Source of the DNA: a virus
Virus record (IMG/VR): IMGVR_UViG_3300005295_000594
Span: 1-40,395 of that record
DNA length: 40,395 nt
Direction: 5' to 3' (one strand)
Positions 38,618 to 40,395 of this stretch are shown here, piece by piece. The notes under the pieces were generated by a model that worked only from the letters and a program-made list of their open reading frames with translations, was not told the DNA's origin and did not search any database. Made by a program: the position numbers and the translations under genes. Positions within the stretch are counted from its first letter, which is position 1; each line of letters begins with the position of its first letter.

Positions 38618-39382
38618 ATGAAATCACTTCCGATAATTCCCTGGATTGGTGGAAAACGACGTCTGGCCGAGAAGATATTGCCCATGTTCCCTGAACACAC
38701 ATGCTACGTGGAGCCCTTTGCCGGCGGTGCGGCACTATTCTTCATGAAAGAGCCGTCCAAAGTTGAAGTTCTCAACGATATCAACGGTGATCTGATCAAT
38801 CTCTACCGCGTAGTCAAACATCATCTAGAGGAATTTATCCGCCAATTCAAATGGGCGCTCAGCAGCCGGGAGATGTTTCGCTGGCTGCAAATTACACCAC
38901 CCGAGACACTGACCGACATTCAGCGAGGCGCGCGCTTTTACTATCTGCAAAAGCTAGCATTCGGCTCTCGCGTGGAATCCCAAAGATTTGGCACAGCGAC
39001 TACCGCACCTCCAAAACTCAACCTGATCCGCCTCGAAGAAGACCTCAGTCAAGCGCATCTGCGCCTCTCGCGCGTATCGGTCGAGCAACTGAAATGGGCG
39101 GATTGCGTCGGTCGCTACGATCGGGAACACACTCTGTTTTTTATGGACCCGCCGTATTGGGGTACGGAAGGTTATGGGGTGCCGTTTCCGCTAAAAGAGT
39201 ACGGCCAAATGGCGGAGATGCTACGTGCCATGAAGGGCAAGGCGATCGTGACCGTAAACGATATTCCAGAGATGCGCAGCGCGTTCGCAGGTTTGCGCAC
39301 TAACCGAGTGCGCATTGCCTATACGGTGGGCGGCGCAAAGCGCGCGAAGCCGACTGTTGAACTGATTATTCGCAACTGGTAA
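38618..39382 (+). CDS. dam: Dam-like adenine-N6 DNA methyltransferase
   Basis: A 254-residue D12-class adenine methyltransferase. The N-terminal SAM-binding motif is PWIGGKRRLAEKIL and the second SAM segment YVEPFAGGAALFF. The catalytic motif IV is FFMDPPYWGTEGYG with Asp177. The small target domain (about 60-150) contains ARFYYLQKLAFGSR. GATC is the likely target but cannot be read from sequence alone. It is upstream of com and the cytosine methyltransferase. In Mu, host Dam methylation is needed to switch on the com-mom operon, so a self-encoded Dam-like enzyme here may replace that dependence or simply protect phage DNA. Confidence 0.92.
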   Translation: MKSLPIIPWIGGKRRLAEKILPMFPEHTCYVEPFAGGAALFFMKEPSKVEVLNDINGDLINLYRVVKHHLEEFIRQFKWALSSREMFRWLQITPPETLTDIQRGARFYYLQKLAFGSRVESQRFGTATTAPPKLNLIRLEEDLSQAHLRLSRVSVEQLKWADCVGRYDREHTLFFMDPPYWGTEGYGVPFPLKEYGQMAEMLRAMKGKAIVTVNDIPEMRSAFAGLRTNRVRIAYTVGGAKRAKPTVELIIRNW

Positions 39383-39389
39383 ATCTGCG

Positions 39390-39587
39390 ATGACGAAGGA
39401 AGAGATTCGCTGTCCTAACTGTGATAAGTTGTTGGCGAAAGGCGTGGTGACGACGCTTGAGATCAAGTGTCCCCGCTGCCATGCCATTCTTCAATTGAGA
39501 GCCTTGAGCCCCCAATCAGAGCGCCTCCGAGCGTCGCAAGAAGGAAACCTATGCGATGCTCAAAAAGAAAAACCCGACAATCGGTAG
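39390..39587 (+). CDS. com: Com-like zinc-finger translational regulator
   Basis: A 65-residue homolog of Mu Com, an RNA-binding protein that melts an inhibitory stem-loop to allow mom translation. The zinc site is IRCPNCDKLLAKG (Cys8, Cys11) and LEIKCPRCHAI (Cys27, Cys30), with the NCDKLL and LEIKCPRC spacing of Com. The tail is polar. It starts 7 bases after the dam stop. Its last 32 bases overlap the following cytosine methyltransferase gene in another frame, as com overlaps mom in Mu. The implied target is therefore the methyltransferase mRNA. Confidence 0.9.
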   Translation: MTKEEIRCPNCDKLLAKGVVTTLEIKCPRCHAILQLRALSPQSERLRASQEGNLCDAQKEKPDNR

Positions 39588-40395
39588 CTTGTTCGCCGGT
39601 ATTGGCGGTTTCGATCTCGGATTTGAGAAAGCGGGCTTTACAACCGTTTGGCAGGTCGAAATTGATCCTATCTGCCGGGCAGTCCTGCAAGCACGATTCC
39701 CGTACGCACGTCAGATCCCGGATGTGCGGGACTGCAACGCGCAAAACCTCGATCCCGTCGACGTCATTACGGCCGGCTTCCCATGCCAGGACGTTAGTGC
39801 GATGGGAAAGCGGCGCGGCCTCGCCGGGGAACGCACGGGCCTCTTCTGGGAAGTCTGTCGTATCATCACCGAACTACGGCCCGAATGGCTGGTGCTTGAA
39901 AACGTCGTTGGGCTGCTCACGAGCCATGATGGCCAGGACTTTGCGGCAGTCGTTAACGCGCTTGCCGACTGCGGGTATGTGGGACTGTGGCGGGTGCTTG
40001 ATGCTGCGGGTTTCGGAGTTCCCCAAAGCCGTCGCCGCGTTTTCCTGGTCGCAGGTCTTGGCGTCACACCCCCCATCGAGCTGTTATCTGACGCCGCACC
40101 AGTGGAAGGATTACCTCGCACGTTTGCGCCGCTCGAAAAGCCACGGCCAGCGGATGAACGCCCTGCCTATTGTCTACTTGCCCACAAAGCGGCCAGCCAG
40201 ATCGGCCTTGGCTGTGAGAATCTCATCGCTGTCGAAGGACGTCGGGATCAGATGGTTAAGCGGGCCAGAAGCGCTCAGGATGCAGGGCTTTGCCTCGGAC
40301 TGGATGCGGCCAACTTTGCGGAGATTAGGGGTGCCGGAAACGCCGTCGCCGTACCGGTCGCGGAATGGATCGCCCGCAAACTGATCGCCGCCTGA
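39556..40395 (+). CDS. C5-cytosine DNA methyltransferase, probably with two compensating frameshifts
   Basis: The open frame gives 279 residues. Motif I is GSLFAGIGGFDLGFEKAG, the catalytic motif IV is AGFPCQDVSAMGKRRG (Cys77), motif VI is LVLENVVGLL (Glu115), motif VIII is GVPQSRRRVFLV and motif X is AGNAVAVPVAEWIARKL. The stretch from residue 172 to about 258 lacks the expected target-recognition and motif IX features. The +1 frame over the same bases has them: SSCYLTPHQWKDYLARLRRS and, at 40250-40306, RWLSGPEALRMQGFASDW. The switch points coincide with CCCCCC (40069-40074) and GGGG (40328-40331). It occupies the place of mom. It overlaps com and probably depends on Com for translation. The only possible in-frame start is ATG 39556. 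Confidence 0.87.
   Translation: MLKKKNPTIGSLFAGIGGFDLGFEKAGFTTVWQVEIDPICRAVLQARFPYARQIPDVRDCNAQNLDPVDVITAGFPCQDVSAMGKRRGLAGERTGLFWEVCRIITELRPEWLVLENVVGLLTSHDGQDFAAVVNALADCGYVGLWRVLDAAGFGVPQSRRRVFLVAGLGVTPPIELLSDAAPVEGLPRTFAPLEKPRPADERPAYCLLAHKAASQIGLGCENLIAVEGRRDQMVKRARSAQDAGLCLGLDAANFAEIRGAGNAVAVPVAEWIARKLIAA

Follow-up and report, generated by a model that had tools for sequence, protein, structure and literature searches.

A com gene with a predicted RNA switch upstream of a C5-cytosine methyltransferase in a viral record that encodes a Mu-type transposase

The window analysed here is a whole viral record of 40,395 bases, in which domain searches identify a Mu-type transposase, an AAA protein and a homologue of Mu gp48. 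Its final base is also the end of a methyltransferase stop codon, which is where the view of the locus ends. The features considered below are the following:

38618-39382, plus strand: D12 adenine methyltransferase (PF02086, 3e-25)
39390-39587, plus strand: com, Mu-like zinc-ribbon translational regulator of 65 aa (PF10122, 7e-13; PHROG 6417, 3e-16)
39497-39512 (match 39496-39514), plus strand: predicted Com site 1, GAGAGCCUUGAGCCCC, an exact match to the SELEX consensus, with one A.C mismatch that weakens its stem
39519-39535, plus strand: predicted Com site 2, hairpin GA-GCG-CC-UCC-GAG-CGU-C, better paired than site 1
39529-39561, plus strand: predicted translation-inhibitory hairpin, in which GAGCGUCGCA (39529-39538) pairs with UGCGAUGCUC (39552-39561)
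39541-39545, plus strand: Shine-Dalgarno sequence AAGGA of the C5 methyltransferase, 10 nt before its ATG
39556-40395, plus strand: C5-cytosine DNA methyltransferase in frame 0, 279 aa (PF00145, 4e-57; TIGR00675, 3e-52)
about 39868-40320 (open 39461-40384), plus strand: protein-coding-like part of a nested +1 frame, with the motif-IX-like GIRWLSGPEALRMQGFASDW at 40244-40303

The product of com matches the Pfam family for the Mu-like prophage protein Com (PF10122) with 48.3 bits against a cut-off of 22.9, its PHROG match (6417) is annotated as 'translational regulator', and its four cysteines form two CxxC pairs (CPNC...CPRC). The gene overlaps that of the C5 methyltransferase by exactly 32 nt (39556-39587). 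An earlier sequence-only reading had described a recognisable Com overlapping a C5 methyltransferase by 32 bases, and the cysteine motif, both protein families and the extent of the overlap are all confirmed. Absent from that reading was the D12 gene, which ends 7 nt 5′ of com. D12 enzymes are the commonest type of gene controlled, or putatively controlled, by com, yet this one lies upstream of it and we found no full-consensus Com site before it. Near com, no terminator or promoter scored above shuffled sequences, the promoter scan covering the sigma-70 consensus only.

Com is known mainly from the mom gene of phage Mu. The openly licensed literature returned nothing relevant on com together with cytosine methyltransferases, nor an earlier description of a family-wide RNA element or of C5 attachment; com beside adenine or N4/N6 methylases had previously been annotated in phages B3, AP3, KS5 and SuMu. 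When viral contigs were scanned with the methyltransferase alone, com lay directly upstream of, and overlapped, the gene in seven of nine relatives. As the Com protein tree has too few columns for tracing client switches (we call the gene just downstream of com its client), we used a tree of C5 enzymes that included com-less relatives. With the quick method employed, the com label needs six changes on this tree and the well-supported branches force six, so that C5 enzymes either were linked to com on multiple occasions or gained and then lost the link. The recurrence in relatives and the C5 tree rule out a chance adjacency of the two genes, and C5 enzymes apparently became attached to com on several separate occasions.

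Nowacka et al. (2019; PMC6483171) selected RNAs by SELEX with the Com of Haemophilus sputorum and obtained NGAGNNCC(N)2-3GAGNNCCNN, interpreted as a hairpin whose loop carries CC(N)2-3GAG. Both predicted Com sites of the window stand in tandem 5′ of the methyltransferase start, and site 2 is the only full-consensus Com site on the plus strand of the window. Rfam held no match for this region, nor for Mu, H. sputorum and two other loci.

We surveyed viral contigs, phage records and one genome per bacterial or archaeal species by Com, which together with the loci from the C5 scan yielded 130 non-redundant com loci. The client is a D12 adenine methyltransferase in 71, a beta-class N4/N6 methyltransferase in 13, a C5 methyltransferase in 13 (a share that is inflated because five of these came from the C5 scan), Mom in six and a small-protein/ABC-GNAT operon in six. 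No client was recognised in the other 21, some of which are truncated at the edge of a contig, while others probably do not encode a true Com. The C5 pairing is a rarer variant than that of com with an adenine or N4/N6 methylase. The window client was originally presented as standing 'instead of mom', and it is indeed not Mom; this is not exceptional, Mom being the client in only six of the 130 loci. The sequence-only reading had also held that com homologues without overlap to modification genes would count against it. Among 101 called client starts, which were set by rule and not by data, 83 overlap com and 18 lie at or past its stop codon; overlap is thus not an essential feature, since the non-overlapping clients, for example in Pasteurellaceae, retain a Com hairpin before their start.

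Examples of the loci without a recognised client that are probably not Com are zinc ribbons of Bacillota, including Syntrophomonadaceae, which are Com-like, are encoded 5′ of thiolase-like genes and lack Com hairpins (L172, L174, L175, L179 and L163). These are probably a different family caught by the Com searches.

When the cores of Com sites were taken without any stem requirement, 84 non-redundant loci had a site 2, in 40 of them accompanied by a site 1 that nearly always lies 22-23 nt further 5′. The three stem pairs of site 2 are formed in 99, 93 and 96% of loci, compared with 86, 56 and 68% in permuted data (z about 9-10), a conserved A.C mismatch follows them, and the complete hairpin is found at 76 of the 84 loci. 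The density of complete hairpins is 9.79 per kb in com tails but 0.104 per kb in the remainder of these loci, a roughly 94-fold enrichment. In two alignments, one per loop length, 97.3 and 98.7% of cells are paired and 39 and 32 are compensatory, counts that no shuffle reached and that collapse when the partners are slid; because these alignments preferred complete hairpins where a choice existed, the stem-blind test of 84 loci is the unbiased one. Some ABC-GNAT loci have G-C in place of the closing C-G pair, which adds another compensatory change. The hairpin, whose consensus is GAsssCC(N)2-3GAGsssC, is present in 12 of the 13 C5 loci and usually lies 18-28 nt before the client start across com loci; in Pasteurellaceae and a few others com stops before the hairpin, which still precedes the client by 20-35 nt. 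Sequence comparison thereby strongly supports the com target hairpin as a covarying, family-wide RNA element.

Such repeats might instead stem from a DNA operator or from conservation of the Com protein, given that site 2 falls in one reading frame relative to com in 55 of 74 cases and that a PERxRAS-like pattern recurs in the Com tail. Synonymous re-encoding of Com tails, however, removes the hairpins (from 127 to 5.6), and hairpins also occur in other frames and outside com. Moreover, sense-strand G-U pairs number 25 versus 10 for A-C, and the loop is asymmetric and matches a motif selected as RNA. The re-encoding and frame evidence led us to reject a protein-coding explanation of the hairpins, and we find a protein or DNA origin of the motif, taken together, barely credible compared with an RNA structure.

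One locus, L166 (Haemophilus influenzae HI-5290), has between com and its D12 gene a Com site, GAATGACTTGAGCATC, whose core CC is changed to AC, unlike the copies in H. aegyptius (L158 and L159). This natural variant could serve to test the site.

In the window, a predicted fold of ten pairs (z −4.2 and −3.8) buries the methyltransferase AUG at 39556 and holds the Shine-Dalgarno sequence in its loop. The 5′ arm of this putative lock contains the GAG and the 3′ stem of Com site 2, so that lock and Com hairpin are mutually exclusive, and imposing the Com hairpin raises the predicted accessibility of the start from 0.00 to 0.99. The lock is favoured over the Com fold by about 9 kcal/mol, a cost that would have to be paid by Com binding or by co-transcriptional folding.

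Over the 84 loci, pairing of the site-2 arm is stronger with the start of its own client than with the starts of other clients (0 of 20,000 permutations as extreme, z −6.6), and for C5 clients own and cross pairings come to −9.3 and −5.8 kcal/mol. Client starts are also more structured than 262 other starts from the same loci (mean z −1.51 versus 0.14, p = 2.5e-16), a score to which the nearby Com hairpin may add, and less accessible (0.35 versus 0.55, p = 2.7e-9), which is the more direct measure. Imposing the Com hairpin at 89 loci clearly opened the start in 23 and worsened it in five; as opening is clear in a minority, the exact rearrangement varies, with the window among the clearest cases. 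For Mu, this simple model predicts no opening when the Com hairpin is imposed, and the rearrangement there must therefore involve more than the modelled hairpin.

These pairings bear on the possibility that the C5 methyltransferase is a constitutively expressed passenger in a cargo hot spot beside com. In its favour, Mu-like phages vary at their right end, and one D12 gene that lacks a Com site does lie beside com; yet C5 clients keep both the distance from site to start and the complementarity between the arm and their own start, and all but one of the 13 C5 loci have the hairpin. We regard the passenger explanation as very improbable.

Instead, we propose that com, with the RNA sites in its 3′ half, would act as a self-contained translational switch for the gene just downstream. 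Without Com, the arm GAGCGUCGCA would pair with UGCGAUGCUC and bury the methyltransferase start codon. Accumulating Com would then bind the CC(N)2-3GAG loops of the tandem hairpins and stabilise the short hairpin that uses the same arm, whereupon the inhibitory pairing would break and the AUG be freed. The enzyme would then be made with a delay and would methylate phage DNA, most likely against host restriction. We assign a probability of roughly 0.82 to this model as a whole, in which com with its own RNA sites controls the start of the C5 client. The domains, the overlap, the target motif, the covariation, the constant spacing, the alternative pairing and the exchange of clients are computed features, and alongside them we infer binding by the window Com, activation in vivo, timing and the anti-restriction purpose.

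Ribosomes translating com cross the hairpin, however, and could open the lock without Com. In the simplest form of such translational coupling they would unwind the hairpin and reinitiate, and the Com protein would have no role in client translation. This agrees with the layout of the window, where com is translated through the hairpin and stops beyond it at 39587, and with the 83 of 101 client starts that overlap com. Coupling has no need, though, for hairpins that match the sequence selected by Com, and certain loci, those of Pasteurellaceae among them, keep the site and the start hairpin at the same spacing although both come after the com stop. In Mu, the Com protein is reported to bind mom mRNA and to activate its translation (PMC6483171). 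Coupling that dispenses with Com thus appears unlikely to us, and we retain the Com-dependent switch.

The comparison with Mu com-mom points the same way. In both, the gene for a Com zinc ribbon overlaps a modification gene, and a CC(N)3GAG hairpin immediately precedes a start codon that an inhibitory hairpin sequesters, at a distance from site to start of 19 nt in Mu and 24 nt in the window. Whereas Mu has one strong Com site, the window has two, and its client, a C5 methyltransferase (PF00145), is unrelated to Mom (PF25680), for which reason the locus is not a com-mom operon. The sequence-only reading had proposed comparing the folded mRNA with the mom translation-inhibitory stem-loop; a hairpin that buries the start and has the Shine-Dalgarno sequence in its loop is predicted, as in Mu, but the likeness is incomplete because the window lock overlaps the GAG itself. 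Overall, strong comparative evidence suggests that the window locus would work like the Mu com-mom switch.

Phages B3, SuMu, AP3 and KS5 and Haemophilus prophages likewise place a DNA methyltransferase, and not Mom, in the position after Com, with Com sites at the same spacing, whereas their enzymes are adenine or N4/N6 methyltransferases (D12 or beta class) and not C5. A 2012 paper reportedly described the adenine enzymes Hia5, Hin1523 and NMA1821 at the mom position. Enzymes of this adenine methyltransferase group are mentioned in PMC5399793. Its own target hairpins and a start lock accompany com at no fewer than five unrelated enzyme types, and it therefore resembles a transferable on-switch for the DNA-modification genes of phages. 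The suggestion, made from the letters of the window, of a portable Com switch reattached to another enzyme is in this respect strongly supported, through the SELEX motif, the covarying hairpins, the sequestered start, the constant spacing and the unrelated clients.

Alignment of the window C5 enzyme with its relatives places motifs I, IV (PCQ, catalytic), VI (ENV), VIII and X in frame 0, where motif IX was not found in either the window enzyme or the relatives, and the match to M.HhaI is limited to residues 11-166. In the window family, the +1 frame has 0-2 stops per roughly 275 codons compared with 8-21 in +2, the third codon position is no longer the most variable from residue ~105 on, and at residues 216-250 conservation is ~0.7 for the +1 protein against ~0.5 for frame 0. 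Most relatives have at these residues a motif-IX-like stretch in the +1 frame, GIRWLSGSERLxMMGFAxDWMRPTL; the nested frame was observed in the window, L091-L098 and L157. A frameshift or sequencing error was rejected, as frame 0 and the open +1 frame are both retained in relatives, and a single-sequence structure prediction of the methyltransferase was uninformative (pLDDT 35).

This division resembles that of M.EcoHK31I (YGGCCR), whose large chain has motifs I-VIII and X and whose small chain has only motif IX (PMC3404938). The likeness is drawn from the published description of its motifs, and the window enzyme differs in being phage-borne and Com-linked. We regard it as a putative two-chain enzyme of the M.EcoHK31I type, with a predicted second chain in the +1 frame. 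One candidate start for this chain is the ATG at 39551, so near the frame-0 ATG (5 nt before it) that, speculatively, the lock might gate both chains. The +1 frames of two further com-linked C5 groups (L002/L020 and L026) match PHROG 1008, 'DNA methyltransferase', and nesting may therefore be common. A split C5 enzyme is also seen in Mycobacterium phage Goose (L426, 998-1991), where two genes annotated as DNA methyltransferases share 182 nt that they read in different frames.

In the ABC-GNAT group (L006, L011, L021, L043, L067, L153 and L186), the genes after com encode a ~55-aa protein (PHROG 28816) and a fusion of ABC-ATPase and GNAT (PHROG 11143), neither PHROG having an annotated function; several of these loci have a Com hairpin 15-24 nt before the small open reading frame. 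The two genes are a candidate DNA-modification operon of a new type.

It seems to us fairly probable, if less so than the switch at the window locus, that com is a one-gene transferable switch, such that any gene placed 18-28 nt past the second hairpin would become a client. It would have been attached repeatedly to unrelated enzymes, including several nested two-frame C5 lineages (whose chains would perhaps be released together) and the operon of the ~55-aa protein, ABC-ATPase and acetyltransferase, which may make an unknown DNA modification. The element would suggest how phages exchange anti-restriction enzymes while retaining one control device, and provides a signature by which phage modification genes of unfamiliar type can be found. 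Its precise consensus across the family makes the questions of Com-RNA recognition and switching testable on many natural pairs.

Some com genes with Com hairpins precede genes of no known family, namely in L031 (6170-7189), L055 (6184-7431) and L140 (3104-4027), and the same holds for L073 (6188-6532) and L143 (3185-3595), whose downstream genes both match the unannotated PHROG 4513. These five genes are possible clients other than methyltransferases.
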